Shown here piece by piece: positions 35,721 through 41,552 of a DNA stretch of 64,000 nucleotides. A program made the translations under genes and the position numbers. How positions within the stretch are numbered: position 1 is the first letter of the stretch; every line of letters begins with the position of its first letter. This DNA comes from Pelovirga terrestris. Lineage in GTDB: Bacteria; Desulfobacterota; Desulfuromonadia; Desulfuromonadales; Geopsychrobacteraceae. The notes beneath the pieces were generated by a model, which saw only the letters and a program-made list of their open reading frames with translations, ran no database searches and was not told the origin of the DNA. Location of the stretch: positions 62,001-126,000 of the forward strand of contig NZ_JACWUN010000010.1 of NCBI RefSeq assembly GCF_014773365.1, in the 5' to 3' direction.

Positions 35721-36508
35721 TGATAGCAGCTCAAATTGATCCGATTATTTTTACCATAGGCCCACTGGCTGTACGCTGGTATGGCATGATGTACCTGCTG
35801 AGCTTTGTCGGTGGTTATTTCATGATGGTGCATATCTGTAACCTGCGCCGCTATCCGCTCAATCGTGAGGCGGTAGCCGATCTGCTGTTTTATGCGGTTA
35901 TCGGAGTAGTAGCCGGTGGTCGCCTGGGATACACACTCTTTTACCAGCCGGCATACTACCTTGAGCATCCCCTTGAAATATTTTATATCTGGCAAGGGGG
36001 GATGAGTTTTCATGGTGGCCTGATGGGGGTTTTTATTGTCCTGTTCTGGTTTGCCAGACGGCGCAATATACCGCTGCTGCAACTTGGTGATCTGACTGTT
36101 GCGGCTGTGCCCATTGGCTTAGGACTGGGACGCATAGGCAACTTTATCAACGGAGAATTATGGGGACGGCCTACCGAGTTGCCCTGGGGGATGGTTTTTC
36201 CTGCCGCCGACTTGCAAGCCCGCCACCCCAGTCAACTATATGAGGCGTTTCTCGAGGGATTTGTGCTGTTGCTGGTGATTTATGGTCTCCATCGCTTCGG
36301 CGTTAAGCGTGGTGTCCCGGTGGCCGTTTTTTTGCTGGGTTATGGTCTTGCCCGTTTCATCGTTGAATTTGTTCGTGAACCCGATATCCACCTGGGTTTT
36401 TTATGGGGCGGTGCAACTATGGGGCAGCTGTTATCCCTGCCGATGATGGTCGTTGGTGGGTTCTTGTTGTTATGGCTATTAAAAGGGCAGAACGATGAAA
36501 GAAATTGA
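35720..36508 (+). CDS. lgt: Prolipoprotein diacylglyceryl transferase
   Basis: The 262-residue membrane enzyme attaches diacylglycerol to the lipobox Cys of prolipoproteins, the first step in lipoprotein maturation. Conserved motifs: VRWYGMMYLLSF, GGMSFHGGLMGVF, and GLGRIGNFINGELWGRPT with the Arg and the Asn-Gly-Glu. Seven hydrophobic segments are seen. It overlaps the start of the next gene by 14 bases. It fits with the many lipoproteins further along the window. Confidence 0.96.
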   Translation: MIAAQIDPIIFTIGPLAVRWYGMMYLLSFVGGYFMMVHICNLRRYPLNREAVADLLFYAVIGVVAGGRLGYTLFYQPAYYLEHPLEIFYIWQGGMSFHGGLMGVFIVLFWFARRRNIPLLQLGDLTVAAVPIGLGLGRIGNFINGELWGRPTELPWGMVFPAADLQARHPSQLYEAFLEGFVLLLVIYGLHRFGVKRGVPVAVFLLGYGLARFIVEFVREPDIHLGFLWGGATMGQLLSLPMMVVGGFLLLWLLKGQNDERN

Positions 36509-37145
36509 AGCCATTATCTACGATTGCGACGGGGTCCTGTTTGAAAGCCACGCTGCCAATCTGGCCTATTATAATCAAATTTTTTCAGCTTTTGGCTATC
36601 CTCCGATCACCGTAGACCAACAGGAAAAGGCCTATCTGTGCCATACCGCCAGTTCGCCCGTGGTATTAGCCGGTTTGATGCGAGCAACTGATGTGCCTGC
36701 TGCACTCAGCTTTGCGGCAGAGATCGATTATCGGGAATTTATTCCGTTGATGAAGCCGATGCCTCATCTGCATCAGGTCCTTGAGGTTGTCGCTAATCAC
36801 TATCCCCTGGCGATTGCTACTAATCGTGGGGGCAGCGTTATGCCGATTTTAGAGCATTTTGGCCTCGATCAATTTTTTTCTGCGGTGGTGACCAGCCGTG
36901 ATGTAAAAAAGCCCAAGCCGGCGCCGGATATGCTTCTGCTGGCGGCTCGCCAACTCGGTTACCAGCCATTCACCTGTCTTTTTATCGGTGATTCAGAGCT
37001 GGATCAGGCTGCAGCTGCGGCCGGGTCATTTCATTTTGCCGGCTATGGAGAGCGGTTTGTGCGGGAAAAAAGCGTTGCTAAGGTGTTGAGCCATCATCTG
37101 GATCTGCTCCAGCATTTGAACCTGTCGGATTCTATTAATCAATGA
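36495..37145 (+). CDS. HAD-superfamily phosphatase (Gph/PpaX-like)
   Basis: The 216-residue hydrolase has motif I DCDGVLFES (nucleophile and acid Asp), motif II ATNRG (Thr/Asn), a Lys in VKKPKPAPDMLL, and motif IV FIGDSELDQAAA. Subclass IA cap helices lie at residues about 20-85. Likely substrates are small phosphates such as phosphoglycolate, but the sequence does not say. It overlaps lgt by 14 bases and converges with the RsbW-like gene, overlapping its end by 7 bases. Confidence 0.88.
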   Translation: MKEIEAIIYDCDGVLFESHAANLAYYNQIFSAFGYPPITVDQQEKAYLCHTASSPVVLAGLMRATDVPAALSFAAEIDYREFIPLMKPMPHLHQVLEVVANHYPLAIATNRGGSVMPILEHFGLDQFFSAVVTSRDVKKPKPAPDMLLLAARQLGYQPFTCLFIGDSELDQAAAAAGSFHFAGYGERFVREKSVAKVLSHHLDLLQHLNLSDSINQ

Positions 37146-37561
37146 AACGTTTTTGTCATTTCCAGCACATTAGCCCCGTTTTCTTGTAAATACTTCACAT
37201 TGTCCATCAGTTTCAGAATAATGTTGATACCTCGCCCACCCTCATCGCAGGGGTGGGCTTTTGTTTTTCTGCGGGCGCTGATATCAAAACCCGGACCCTG
37301 GTCATAAATTCTGATGACCAGGTCATCATCGGAGGCCGAGATGCTGATGTGGACATCCTTATCCGGGTCGGAGTTGTTGCCGTGGCAGATGGCATTGGTC
37401 AACCCTTCTGTCAAACAGAGGTTAAGATGATAGGCCAGTTCACGCCGGTTTCCCTGGTAGTTGTTCAAGGAGAAAGCCAGGCTTTCACCTATCTGACCTA
37501 TCAGGGCGAGATAGCGAGTCTGGCTGGGTACCTTGATGTTGAGTTCTACCCGCTTAGGCAT
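37139..37561 (-). CDS. RsbW-like serine kinase (anti-sigma factor type)
   Basis: The 140-residue HATPase-domain protein has the N-box ELAYHLNLCLTEGLTNAICHGN, the G1 box YDQGPGFD and the G2 box GGRGINIILKLMD. Such kinases phosphorylate a STAS partner and bind a target, often a sigma factor. It lies 46 bases after the STAS gene and behind the SpoIIE phosphatase, completing a partner-switching set. The start at 37561 has AAGAAGG upstream; a longer frame reaching 37654 overlaps the STAS gene and is not supported. No sigma factor is nearby, so the target is unknown. Confidence 0.9.
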   Translation of the reverse strand: MPKRVELNIKVPSQTRYLALIGQIGESLAFSLNNYQGNRRELAYHLNLCLTEGLTNAICHGNNSDPDKDVHISISASDDDLVIRIYDQGPGFDISARRKTKAHPCDEGGRGINIILKLMDNVKYLQENGANVLEMTKTFH

Positions 37562-37607
37562 AAAAACCTTCTTTACAACAGGGTTGTGGCAGGGTTGTGG
37601 CGATAGC

Positions 37608-37946
37608 TCAGGACTGGCTGTCAAGCGCCTCTTGCAGGGTCGAAAAAATTTCAAAAACGCGATGCAGGCGAGTCAATTCAAACATGGATCGCACCTGTGG
37701 TTGCAGGCAGCAGAGTTTGAGACTGCCGTCACGGGCGCTGGCATTCTTGAAGCCGGAAACCAGGGCCCCAAGGCCGGAGGAGTCAATGAAGCGAACGGCG
37801 GTCAGGTCGATGACCAGCTGGTATTTCCCCTCATCAAAAAGCTGCAACATCCGTTCTTTTAGGTTGCCGCTGTTATGAGCGTCCATCCGTTCTTCTTCCA
37901 CAGTGATAATGACGTTGTCTTCCTGTTCGTTGATTTTTAATTGCAT
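37608..37946 (-). CDS. STAS-domain anti-sigma factor antagonist
   Basis: The 112-residue protein has the STAS fold with VIDLTAVRFIDSSGLGALVSG, in which the Ser of DSSG is the residue phosphorylated by RsbW-type kinases and dephosphorylated by SpoIIE-type phosphatases. AAAGGAG lies eight bases before the ATG. It sits between the phosphatase and kinase genes, in the same direction, and is the expected switch protein of the set. Confidence 0.92.
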   Translation of the reverse strand: MQLKINEQEDNVIITVEEERMDAHNSGNLKERMLQLFDEGKYQLVIDLTAVRFIDSSGLGALVSGFKNASARDGSLKLCCLQPQVRSMFELTRLHRVFEIFSTLQEALDSQS

Positions 37947-38041
37947 TGCATAGACTCCTTTTTTGCCGGTTGCGAAAAAAACTCATGTTGATAGTGGTCA
38001 CATTATACCTCAGTTTGTGAGATGGCTGGTGACCCCTGGTG

Positions 38042-41000
38042 TCATTTCAGGATTTTCATCGCCAACAATGTAACATCATCATTGAAGTGGCGATAGCCTG
38101 TGAAAAGCCTGACTTGAGTGAGAATCTGATCGATCAGTTCCTGTGGCGTTGACTGCTGCTCTTCGCTGAGCAATTTTTCCAGGCGTTCCTGGCCAAACAA
38201 GTTCTGATGGCTGTCTTCCGCTTCGACAATGCCATCGGTGTAAAGCAGCAGGATGTCGCCTGGCTCCAGCCGGGTATTTTTTTGTTCAAAATTGATTTTT
38301 TTATGGATGCCAAAAATCAGACCTTCTGCATCCAGTGGTTCAATCTGCTGCACCTTCTGGCGCCAGAGTAGTGGCGGATTGTGGCCGGCATTACTGTAAA
38401 TCAGTTGATGGTCATCCAGATTGTACTGCAGATAAAACATGGTGACAAACAGATCAGAGCGATCAAGATCCTTAAGAAAATAATCGTTGAGGGCCTGGAG
38501 CATGGCTGCCGGATTGTTAATACCATCAACCCTGGAATGGATAAAGGTGCGGGTTTCTGCCATGATCAGTGCCGATCCGATATTGTGTCCGGAGACATCG
38601 GCGATGACAACATCATAGCGACCATCCTTGCGGATAATAAAGTCGTAATAGTCACCGCCGACCTGATGGGCTGGGACGCAGAGACCAGCGACCTGGATAT
38701 CTTCCAGGGACGGCAAAGATGCAGGCAAAAGAGCCATCTGAATCTCTTTGGCAATCTGCATCTCCCGTTCCTGCTCACGTACCAGCACCAGTCGCCCGAT
38801 CTGTTGTTCATTACGCCGGGCAATACCAATCTGTCCGGCAATGTTTTCCAGTAAGGCAATAAACTCGATGGTAAACAGCCCTTTGCCGGAACGTGAAAAA
38901 GCCGACAGAATGCCCACCGGTTCCCCTTCAAGGACAATCGGCAGATGCGCAAAGCAGGTAATGCCCTCGGCCTGAATAATGGCTGATGATGCCGGTTTTT
39001 CCAGCTCATCCGTGTCATTGACAACCATGGTGACATTCGAAAGGAAGGCCTGGCCGATATAGGTTTCGTTGGAGAGATTGCGCTCAGATTTGCCGAAATG
39101 ATTGAAGGTTTCCCCAACCAGACTTTTGACCAGCAGGGTGCGGGTTTTAGGTTCTAAAAAGCGGATGACACAGAGATCAAATTTAAACTGTTCTGCCAGC
39201 AGTTCAAGGATGCGGTCGAGCTTTGATTGAAAACTGTCACCACTGGAAACCAGCTGAGATACATCATACAGGACGCTTAAGTGTTCACGACTGATTGCCC
39301 CATCGATGGTTACAGAGCCGAAGATATCAAAAATATTTTCCATCTCACTGCCGCGCGCCGCGAGGTAGTTTTCCAGGATTATGCGGGCCGAACCAGCCCC
39401 GACGTGACCGGCCAGAGTCCGTTCGGTAAAGGTTTTCAGACTGAAAATATCCTGGTCATTGAGACTGCCGCGATGATCGATTTCCTTGTCGGCCAGAAAG
39501 GCTGAAATGGCTGTTTGGGCCGGTTTTTCTCCGATAAATTTTGACATCAGATCGACAAATTCGACAATCGTTGGAGCCTTACTGATGCGGGTCAGGCGTT
39601 CGTCGGGTTGGTCCTGATCAACAAACACATCAACAAACATGATCGCCCGTTTTTTTTCTGCATCACTTTGTCGGGTCAGAATCGATACCATGCAATAAAC
39701 GCCCAGATTGAACATCAGACTCCAGAACAGGGAGTGGGTATACATGTCAAAACCACTTAAGCCAAACAATTCAAGAGGCTTAAGTAGTGAGATGCCAAGG
39801 GGGCCATATTGGAGCAGGTCGGAGCTGATCCAGCCTGAGCGGGCAAAAGAGGGGATCAGCAAGGTATACACCCAGACCGCAAACCCCAGACTGATCGACC
39901 AGGTGGCGGCATATTTGTTGGCGCGTTTCCAATAGATAGCACCAATCATGGCGGGGGCAAACTGGGCCGCGGCCATAAACGAGATCAGGCCGATATTAAC
40001 CAGAGCGTAGGAATCACCAATGACGATAAAGTAAAGGTAGCCCAACAGAACGACACCAACGATGCCAAGACGTTTGATGTTGATCAGGATGCCGGAAAGA
40101 TCCTGTGCCCGCAGTTTTAATTTGAGAATCACCGGCATGACCAGGTGGTTGAGGATCATGGTAGCCAGAGTCACTGAAGAAACCATGACCATGCCGGCCG
40201 CAGCTGAAAGTCCACCAATAAAGACCAGCAAGGCCAGCCAGGGCTGGTTGGCGCCTAATGGCAGGGTCAGGACAAAATAATCGGCCTGGGTGGTGTCGCC
40301 ATGATTAAGCAGCAAGCCCCCCATAGCGATAGGCAGGACGAAAAGGTTGATCAGAAACAGATAGGCAGGAAAGCGCCACATGGCTTTTTTGATATGTTCC
40401 TCGTTGGCGTTTTCCGTCACCATGATATGAAACTGACGCGGCAAAAACATGATCGCTGCCATGGAAATAATGATCAGAGTGAACCATTTGGTGTAGGGTA
40501 CCTCGGCTGTGCCAACGGCAAAGAGATAGCTGCGATCAGGGAAGCGTTGATGAAATTGCTGGAACAGATCGATAAAACCGTCGAACAGCCCGTAGGTGAC
40601 AAAGATGCCAACGGCCACAAAAGCTACCAGCTTGACCAGGGACTCCAGGGCCACGGCGACCACCAGTCCTTCATGCCGTTCTGAAGAGTCGAGATGACGG
40701 GCCCCAAAGAGGATACCGAACAATCCCAGCAGCAGAGTGATGATAAAGGCTGAGTCGATTTGTCCCGGCAGATAAGGGATCAGGCCGGAGGTTGGTTCCG
40801 GCAGGCTTTTCAATGGTAAAAAGAGAATATCCAGCGTTTGCGCGATGGCTTTGAGCTGCAGGGCAATGTAGGGCGTGATGCCGAAGACCGCAAACAGGGT
40901 CACAATGGCACCAAGGACGGCAGAGCGGTCATAGCGGCTGGCTAGAAAATCAGCAAGGCTGGTAATATTTTGTTCTTTGCTGACGCGCACCATTTTGCGT

Positions 41001-41275
41001 AACAGGAACCACCAGCCAAAGGCGATCAGGGTCGGCCCCAGGTAGATGGGCAGATAATCAAGTCCGGAAGTAGCGGCCTTGCCAACACTGCCGTAAAAGG
41101 TCCAGCTGGTGCAGTAAATAGCGATTGACAGGGTATATATGTGGGGGTTGGACAGCAGGCTGCGCCCCATCCTGCGGCGCCGGTCGGCATAATAGGCTAC
41201 AAAAAAAATCAGGGCGAAGTAGCACAGGGAGACGATAATGATTTTTTCTGCTGAAATAACCGTCATGGTGTCCAT
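38042..41275 (-). CDS. SLC5-like transporter/STAC/GAF/SpoIIE phosphatase fusion
   Basis: A 1077-residue fusion. Residues 1 to about 530 look like a sodium:solute symporter (SLC5) with 12-13 membrane segments, similar to the transporter part of CbrA-type histidine kinases. Residues about 545-645 match the STAC linker (FTERTLAGHVGAGSARIIL). A GAF domain (about 665-825) and a short coiled coil (about 815-850) follow. The last about 220 residues are a PP2C/SpoIIE phosphatase with intact metal motifs GGDYYDF, DVSGHN, SNAGHNPP, LYTDG and DDVTLLA. In CbrA the STAC leads to a histidine kinase; here it leads to a phosphatase. Substrate binding could thus control dephosphorylation of the STAS protein encoded next. 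A second in-frame ATG lies three codons in. Confidence 0.9.
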   Translation of the reverse strand: MDTMTVISAEKIIIVSLCYFALIFFVAYYADRRRRMGRSLLSNPHIYTLSIAIYCTSWTFYGSVGKAATSGLDYLPIYLGPTLIAFGWWFLLRKMVRVSKEQNITSLADFLASRYDRSAVLGAIVTLFAVFGITPYIALQLKAIAQTLDILFLPLKSLPEPTSGLIPYLPGQIDSAFIITLLLGLFGILFGARHLDSSERHEGLVVAVALESLVKLVAFVAVGIFVTYGLFDGFIDLFQQFHQRFPDRSYLFAVGTAEVPYTKWFTLIIISMAAIMFLPRQFHIMVTENANEEHIKKAMWRFPAYLFLINLFVLPIAMGGLLLNHGDTTQADYFVLTLPLGANQPWLALLVFIGGLSAAAGMVMVSSVTLATMILNHLVMPVILKLKLRAQDLSGILINIKRLGIVGVVLLGYLYFIVIGDSYALVNIGLISFMAAAQFAPAMIGAIYWKRANKYAATWSISLGFAVWVYTLLIPSFARSGWISSDLLQYGPLGISLLKPLELFGLSGFDMYTHSLFWSLMFNLGVYCMVSILTRQSDAEKKRAIMFVDVFVDQDQPDERLTRISKAPTIVEFVDLMSKFIGEKPAQTAISAFLADKEIDHRGSLNDQDIFSLKTFTERTLAGHVGAGSARIILENYLAARGSEMENIFDIFGSVTIDGAISREHLSVLYDVSQLVSSGDSFQSKLDRILELLAEQFKFDLCVIRFLEPKTRTLLVKSLVGETFNHFGKSERNLSNETYIGQAFLSNVTMVVNDTDELEKPASSAIIQAEGITCFAHLPIVLEGEPVGILSAFSRSGKGLFTIEFIALLENIAGQIGIARRNEQQIGRLVLVREQEREMQIAKEIQMALLPASLPSLEDIQVAGLCVPAHQVGGDYYDFIIRKDGRYDVVIADVSGHNIGSALIMAETRTFIHSRVDGINNPAAMLQALNDYFLKDLDRSDLFVTMFYLQYNLDDHQLIYSNAGHNPPLLWRQKVQQIEPLDAEGLIFGIHKKINFEQKNTRLEPGDILLLYTDGIVEAEDSHQNLFGQERLEKLLSEEQQSTPQELIDQILTQVRLFTGYRHFNDDVTLLAMKILK

Positions 41276-41294
41276 CGCCTGGCCATTATGAATG

Positions 41295-41552
41295 TCAGCG
41301 GGTGATCAGATCATTATTGTTGTTGTTTTGTTGTGCCTGACTTTCCTGCTCAAGGCGCCGGACGAAGAGCCAGATAACAGCAATAGAAGCCGGCCAGCCG
41401 TACATGAAATAGACAACCAGTCTGGGAATGCCTAAGAGGGACATGTCGCCATTAAATATATGGATAAAGGGGAAATTAATCATAATCATTCCAAGGATCA
41501 TAAACAGGATCCAGGCTTCGCGCAGGGTGTTGTCAGGACGATGCTGTTTCAT
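41295..41552 (-). CDS. Small two-span membrane protein, probable symporter partner
   Basis: The 85-residue protein has two hydrophobic segments (residues about 13-32 and 42-63) and a polar, Asn/Gln-rich tail. Small proteins of this shape (DUF485, DUF997/YhdT or DUF4212-like) are often encoded directly before SLC5 transporters. GGGGGGAAGG precedes the ATG and the gap to the fusion gene is 19 bases. It is probably the first gene of the sensor cassette. Family assignment is by context and shape only. Confidence 0.75.
   Translation of the reverse strand: MKQHRPDNTLREAWILFMILGMIMINFPFIHIFNGDMSLLGIPRLVVYFMYGWPASIAVIWLFVRRLEQESQAQQNNNNNDLITR

Follow-up and report, generated by a model that had tools for sequence, protein, structure and literature searches.

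We found that four adjacent minus-strand genes of Pelovirga terrestris, at positions 37139-41552 of a stretch of 64,000 nucleotides (the window, i.e. the whole stretch of DNA that was analysed), encode an 85-amino-acid membrane protein, a 1077-amino-acid SLC5-STAC-GAF-SpoIIE fusion protein, a 112-amino-acid STAS protein and an RsbW-type kinase, and that together they are probably a partner-switching module with a transceptor as its input phosphatase. The module is real, coherent and nearly class-wide in the Desulfuromonadia: its anatomy is plain, its motifs are intact and its linkage is conserved, and the signalling proposed below is what these properties suggest. All four open reading frames, described before in an earlier note on this DNA, are present; the host assembly comprises 3.1 Mb in 47 contigs. 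The features are:

41295..41552, minus strand: small membrane protein, 85 amino acids, two hydrophobic helices (open reading frame, hydropathy)
38042..41275, minus strand: SLC5-STAC-GAF-SpoIIE fusion, 1077 amino acids (Pfam, PDB alignment, AlphaFold2 model)
39671..41275, minus strand: SLC5 (LeuT-fold) domain, residues ~1-535 (CbrA alignment, structure comparison)
40631-40633, minus strand: codon of K215, which aligns with the Na2-site lysine K196 of CbrA (CbrA alignment)
39326..39601, minus strand: STAC domain, residues ~559-650 (CbrA alignment, model helices, STAC-only profile)
38819..39289, minus strand: GAF domain, residues ~663-819 (Pfam, solved GAF structure 2qyb)
38729..38869, minus strand: predicted long helix from GAF to phosphatase, residues 803-849 (AlphaFold2 model)
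38051..38626, minus strand: SpoIIE/PP2C phosphatase domain, residues 884-1075 (Pfam, motifs)
37608..37946, minus strand: STAS anti-anti-sigma-type protein, 112 amino acids, DSSG with S56/S57 (Pfam, alignment)
37139..37561, minus strand: RsbW/SpoIIAB-type serine kinase, 140 amino acids (probable ATG start; the open reading frame extends to TTG 37654)

The nature of the fusion protein was established from several sources. Pfam recognised SpoIIE (residues 884-1075, E 2.5e-53) and GAF (residues 684-819, with a strong GAF_2 match), as the earlier note had expected of a domain search; the other two domains that it named, SSS and STAC, escaped this search, SSF giving no match at E<=1 and the Pfam and NCBIfam output containing no STAC model, and the assignment of SLC5 and STAC therefore needed other evidence. 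It came from the SLC5-STAC chain of CbrA (10ed_A, cryo-electron microscopy), which aligned in one stretch with residues 8-641 (phmmer against the PDB, E 6.7e-75), thus covering both domains, and which was the best solved sequence match of this part. The STAC region (residues 559-650) is 23% identical to CbrA, and a STAC-only profile found the CbrA STAC region as its best PDB match, at an E of 0.02 that is weak on its own. Pfam SSF does match a paralogue of the fusion (L036, 7.3e-9); L144, having no open reading frame of 700 amino acids, was left out of the paralogue set.

An AlphaFold2 model of the fusion, built on a 40-row alignment (mean predicted local distance difference test score 78, predicted template modelling score 0.57), shows SLC5 helices, four helices within residues 570-640 (570-581, 583-594, 607-625 and 627-640) in the STAC region, a GAF fold, a single helix (803-849) and a PP2C fold. 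Structural searches with this model, which included Foldseek, returned the transporters SGLT1 (Z 29.6, root mean square deviation (rmsd) 2.9 over 471 residues), CHT1 (Z 29.3, rmsd 3.4, 463 residues) and NIS (Z 28.0, rmsd 3.8, 466 residues), the phosphatase SiaA-PP2C (Z 27.0, rmsd 2.6, 242 residues) and the GAF structure 2qyb of Geobacter sulfurreducens (Z 22.8, rmsd 2.4, 145 residues, 43% identity); CbrA 10ed was absent among the matches listed. Since 2qyb is annotated as one part of a putative membrane protein, it may derive from an orthologue of the fusion. Pfam found neither HisKA, the output being SpoIIE, nor HATPase_c within the chain, the kinase being a separate gene. Taken together, the CbrA alignment, the model comparisons and the Pfam matches bear out the domain order SLC5-STAC-GAF-SpoIIE, and the protein is most likely a transceptor-phosphatase. 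In the same class, two genomes also carry a histidine kinase in which an SLC5-STAC-GAF front end is combined with a HisKA-HATPase output (L145:1132-4314 and L146:1146-4535).

The phosphatase domain has all of its metal motifs. GGDYYDF starts at residue 873, just ahead of the Pfam SpoIIE range, and is followed by ADVSGH, YTDG and DD; GGDYxD, DVSGH, GH and TDG were kept in all 48 full-length relatives and the last DD in 47, with one gap, in agreement with the claim that these motifs are intact. That the domain might be a degenerate phosphatase was rejected, the motifs being fixed in relatives. The STAS protein (Pfam STAS, 4.4e-24) and the kinase (Pfam HATPase_c_2, 2.8e-22) are equally clear. A profile of the latter best matched RsbW and SpoIIAB, and its N, G1 and G2 boxes are present; the core residues were invariant in 29 aligned rows for the STAS protein and in 26 for the kinase, whose alignment omits rows with a misjudged start, and the mean column identity was 79% versus 61%. 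Within the DSSG motif of the STAS protein, S56 is presumably the phosphorylated residue, by analogy with SpoIIAA and RsbV. The DSSG-bearing STAS protein and the RsbW-like kinase with intact boxes thus stand as first described, except that the start of the kinase was corrected: the ATG at 37561 (140 amino acids) is more likely than the TTG at 37654 (171-amino-acid open reading frame), because most orthologue frames begin there. Counted from this ATG, the intergenic gaps are 19, 95 and 46 bp in gene order.

The arrangement of the four genes is conserved across the class far beyond chance. A scan of genome contigs with six patterns, which was also the only search for the fusion outside the class, yielded 79 loci from the best 80 of 108 relatives. 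DNA was available on both sides of the fusion in 42 of the 48 full-length fusion loci and ended before the downstream side in the other 6. In 36 of these 42 loci the small protein, the STAS protein and the kinase were found beside the fusion, and the same 6 remaining loci lacked all three (orphan paralogues). Many loci resemble one another in their flanks (labelled by eye); those of Geobacter-type loci are reduced. Because many relatives share gene order and flanks, the possibility that these are chance open reading frames was rejected.

Similarly, in a sample of 244 genomes from the class, a match to the kinase profile was found in 225 (77 of 79 genera) and one to the fusion at E<=1e-250 in 206 (71 of 79 genera); since no more than three fusion candidates were scored in each genome, copy numbers are lower bounds. 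Both were found in 204 genomes, the kinase only in 21, the fusion only in 2 and neither in 17 (Fisher p 7e-14, a value that is optimistic because the genomes are related and adjoining genes can be lost jointly). Where the positions of both were among the matches listed, the fusion and the kinase adjoined in 121 of 127 genomes, and in the other 6 they lay on different contigs. The neighbourhood proposed from the window alone, with STAS and kinase genes beside the fusion, is thus the usual one. In three genomes (G122, G175 and G115) a full-length fusion match contained one in-frame TAG or TAA, which points to broken copies or assembly errors.

In a tree of the SLC5-STAC part rooted on CbrA, all 49 SpoIIE fusions formed one clade (support 0.995), apart from 20 others, and the 6 orphan fusions did not cluster together. 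After two of the orphans (L032 and L054) lie genes that, by eye, resemble a TRAP transporter set, and the fusion might there report the solute of that transporter.

We mapped the CbrA residues named in the structural study (PMC13022988; for this and the other papers cited, our statements concern the accessible part of the text) on 40 cassette fusions, 6 orphan fusions and 20 non-SpoIIE relatives. Two of the 48 full-length fusions belong to neither of the first two groups, their contigs ending early; of the non-SpoIIE relatives, 5 were checked with Pfam, all being histidine kinases, and the others were classed by length and match. CbrA positions 531, 579 and 582 were not used, the letters at 531 and 579 disagreeing with the numbering of the paper. 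The Na2-site lysine K196 corresponds to K215 and is identical in 40/40, 6/6 and 20/20 copies, respectively. The equivalents of Y51, W55 and F406 were kept in all 40 cassette copies and that of Y75 in 39; the position of S53 holds T in 39 and S in 1, and that of F71 holds F in 37 and Y in 3, the window being among the latter. At the position of F248, S was found in 34 cassette copies and A in 6 (S271 in the window), and at that of A56 all 40 have T (T59). The pocket thus appears CbrA-like, not identical to it. The orphans have Y at the Y51 position in only 3 of 6 and at the Y75 position in only 2 of 6, and may therefore bind other ligands.

The small membrane protein, which the earlier note had correctly placed in the cassette, has two hydrophobic segments (residues 9-35 and 42-65). 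It is encoded upstream of 42 of the 48 full-length fusions and is absent at the 6 orphans; in 21 of the 42 relatives its gene overlaps that of the fusion by 4 nucleotides, compared with a gap of 19 nucleotides in the window. Of 13 Thalassospira loci, 12 have a homologue (27-34% local identity; 24-28% over the alignment for five aligned proteins) encoded ahead of an SLC5-STAC protein. Its Pfam matches were weak and scattered, the commonest being DUF3311 and DUF2852 (4 of 33 members each), and a profile searched against the PDB gave nothing convincing (best E 0.24). In Pseudomonas, CbrX, whose gene directly precedes that of CbrA, folds into a hairpin of helices that binds the SLC5 domain (PMC13022988). 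Position, size and helices agree, and the small protein may be a counterpart of CbrX; by sequence it matched no PDB chain.

How might such a module work? A small solute would first enter the SLC5 pocket, which is of the CbrA type; with K215 at the Na2 site of this domain, its cycle would be sensitive to protons instead of Na+. The conformational state of the SLC5 domain would reach the docked STAC domain, which in CbrA lies beneath the SLC5 domain (PMC13022988), and the signal would pass on to the long helix ahead of the phosphatase, with the GAF domain adding intracellular input. When helix 803-849 dimerises or becomes ordered, the SpoIIE domain would be switched on or off. RsbU is reported to work in this way: a coiled-coil linker dimerises its PP2C domains, and the same principle has been proposed for sensors in general, GAF included (PMC12143880); in the AlphaFold2 model, the helix sits where an RsbU-type linker would be. 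The SpoIIE domain would dephosphorylate the STAS serine phosphorylated by the RsbW-type kinase, and unphosphorylated STAS protein would capture the kinase, freeing the kinase's target. The second phosphatase of P. terrestris and, in some relatives, the orphan fusions may feed the same STAS-kinase pair. As the earlier note proposed, we infer that nutrient binding or transport may set the phosphorylation of the STAS protein. This is strengthened because the CbrA-type lysine and several pocket residues are conserved, and because one genus (g63) has shed the sensor half and kept the rest: in 3 of 3 genomes examined the usual place is taken by a SpoIIE protein of 266-276 amino acids (Pfam on one) with STAS and kinase next to it, and neither the SLC5-STAC-GAF part nor the small protein was detected at the locus in these three. 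In g63, the unit that stays together is phosphatase, STAS protein and kinase.

Several observations weigh against this reading. In family f11 all 12 sampled genomes, each among the 21 with the kinase only, lack a full-length fusion but retain the kinase, and at each of the 4 loci examined STAS and kinase occupy the usual place with no adjoining phosphatase; no fusion or small protein was detected at these four loci, and the 2-5 SpoIIE proteins in each of 6 scanned genomes do not lie beside STAS-kinase in the loci seen. The sensor is thus dispensable in some lineages. Among genomes of genus g52 that have neither kinase nor fusion, 7 of 9 scanned still hold 1-4 SpoIIE proteins (2 hold none), compared with 1-4 in 8 of 8 genomes with the fusion, and therefore not every SpoIIE protein serves a STAS-kinase hub. 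The substitutions at F248 (S271) and A56 (T59) mean that the ligand need not be histidine. Growth on histidine does not need CbrX (PMC13022988), and an effect of CbrX has been ascribed to translational coupling (PMC6591292), so that the small protein may have no role as a subunit.

Finally, studies of CbrA put sensing in the cytoplasm and report the SLC5 domain to be non-essential for signal perception (PMC9100948, PMC6591292), and the GAF domain, with its strong GAF_2 match, could therefore be the main sensor. SLC5-STAC would then serve as an anchor in the membrane or as a transporter in its own right, and what the phosphatase reads would be a cytoplasmic metabolite. We consider this rather unlikely. 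SLC5 and STAC are the best-conserved parts of the fusion (mean identity to cassette relatives 68.6% and 66.7%, compared with 61.3% for GAF and 59.5% for SpoIIE), although structural constraints often keep membrane domains conserved; in the cassette copies several pocket residues do not vary; and the small protein accompanies 36 of 36 cassettes with two flanks and none of the 6 orphans. Signalling could also run in reverse, with STAS phosphorylation or kinase binding controlling the transport activity of SLC5. In favour of this, STAS domains are found in SulP transporters. STAC has moreover been proposed to regulate solute flow (PMC4834066, PMC9100948). Nevertheless, a SpoIIE domain of the catalytic type lies on the same chain and g63 keeps phosphatase, STAS protein and kinase together without the transporter, which makes such a reverse flow very improbable.

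We return to the transceptor-phosphatase as input and ask what the switch controls. No sigma factor adjoins the cassette, as noted before: a search with PF04542 found three sigma-70 proteins in the genome, with RpoD, RpoS and FliA as best models and none of the SigB or SigF type, and none of the three lies on the contig of the window. The RpoD-type protein (602 amino acids) and the FliA/WhiG-type protein scored above cut-off; the RpoS-type match, with a LysM-type gene upstream (by eye), was below the cut-offs of the models. A sigma factor is the likeliest target; our first guess, on general grounds only, is RpoS, ahead of FliA or RpoD. The location of the three proteins, the lack of a SigB/SigF type and the better conservation of the STAS protein than of the kinase would also suit a non-sigma partner of either protein, for instance a diguanylate cyclase or a flagellar regulator. 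Against such a partner, which we regard as a possible but doubtful target, speak the RsbW and SpoIIAB matches of the kinase profile and the comparable kinase of Chlamydia, which holds the primary sigma factor (PMC4552016). The flanking genes, with labels such as lgt, sppA and rpsA given by eye, were rejected as targets, as the flanks differ in Geobacter-type loci.

Copy numbers bear on whether several inputs share one STAS-kinase pair. The genome of P. terrestris has one PF01740 match (the STAS counts are of this model), one short-frame HATPase_c_2 protein besides 22 other matches in frames of 363-870 amino acids, and two SpoIIE proteins. The second of these (L091 8323-10485), with dCache and HAMP domains, might act on the same STAS protein as a further input. 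We further sampled eight genomes through nine loci, seven with a fusion that, in the DNA available, is not beside STAS and two cassettes for comparison. Exactly one kinase match was found in 7 of the 8 genomes and none in G004; in the five loci examined the kinase was inside the cassette, four having all four genes and one being cut by a contig end. In Geobacter sp. AOG1 (G007) the one SpoIIE, one PF01740 and one kinase match all belong to the cassette, so that the transceptor is the only SpoIIE phosphatase found there. The other sampled genomes have 2-4 PF01740 matches (long frames plus some of 124-187 amino acids), and a single STAS partner is therefore evident only in P. terrestris and G007, which also weighs against the main reading. 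We tentatively suggest, with less than even confidence, that across the class several transceptor-phosphatases, all proton-linked, feed into a single STAS-kinase hub (the hub copy having a CbrA-like pocket and the orphans, present in some genomes beside other genes, altered ones), that each of them reports a different solute, and that the hub sets the activity of RpoS or FliA.

Around the cassette, the stop of the kinase gene overlaps by 7 bp with a convergent HAD-type gene (36495-37145). A promoter scan gave 6 sites against 5.0 expected and RpoN-type motifs were at chance level (12 against 12.1); neither search placed a minus-strand site ahead of the small gene. In some relatives (L111:5319-6926, L112:4193-5782, L113:5065-6657 and L110:6027-7607) a gene of about 530 amino acids lies between a TPR gene and the phosphatase and STAS genes; it is absent at the corresponding place in the window. 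The nearest named relatives are metagenome-assembled genomes labelled Deltaproteobacteria (91% identity) and Desulfuromonadales (90%).

Both halves of the module are known. The CbrXA system of Pseudomonas, an SLC5-STAC histidine kinase transceptor (PDB 10ed), shares the SLC5 fold, the Na2-site lysine, several pocket residues, the STAC domain after the last helix and a small two-helix protein encoded just upstream, in relatives of the cassette often overlapping; it differs in its PAS-DHp-CA histidine kinase output instead of GAF and a SpoIIE phosphatase, in having F248 and A56 where the fusion has Ser and Thr, and in being accompanied by a response regulator rather than by a STAS protein and a serine kinase. 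The RsbU/RsbV/RsbW and SpoIIE/SpoIIAA/SpoIIAB switches share the SpoIIE-type PP2C domain, the DSSG STAS protein, the RsbW-type kinase and a helix before the phosphatase, but not the transporter-shaped input with STAC and GAF, and here no SigB/SigF-type gene is nearby. We know of no SigB in Chlamydia. Its RsbU-RsbV1-RsbW system likewise combines a membrane-spanning SpoIIE phosphatase, a STAS protein and a kinase, but RsbU is predicted to have a periplasmic domain and no SLC5 fold and the genes are, by their numbers, apart (PMC4552016). Also similar are SSS proteins of Streptomyces and related actinobacteria with SSS, GAF and PP2C_SIG in one protein, which, unlike the fusion, carry HATPase_c in the same chain; STAC, a STAS gene or a cassette are not described in the accessible part of that paper (PMC7918813).

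We found no other report of the SSS/GAF/PP2C combination, although a mention in the founding STAC paper is possible, and, by title among the papers listed, no partner-switch study in Geobacter or relatives. In soil microcosms, acetate is reported to elicit a response of deltaproteobacterial transcripts assigned to the RsbU/P orthology group, with the warning that abundance may explain it, in a paper whose accessible part does not describe the fusion (PMC12234377); two others contained, as far as accessible, nothing bearing on it (PMC9237108, PMC11109978). In the literature searched, a conserved module of four genes that joins a transceptor to a partner switch thus appears undescribed.

In CbrA, the transfer of state from SLC5-STAC to the enzyme is open, the kinase part being disordered in the structure (PMC13022988). 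The module described here offers a phosphatase output whose likely substrate is encoded next door, and natural sensor-less versions that serve as controls. Metal respiration and current production are studied in Geobacter and its relatives as model organisms. In Geobacter-type bacteria, across which the gene set is kept, a regulatory switch may be under the control of a receptor that resembles a transporter. If a hub with several transceptors exists, it would be a nutrient-sensing network built of transporter-shaped phosphatases.

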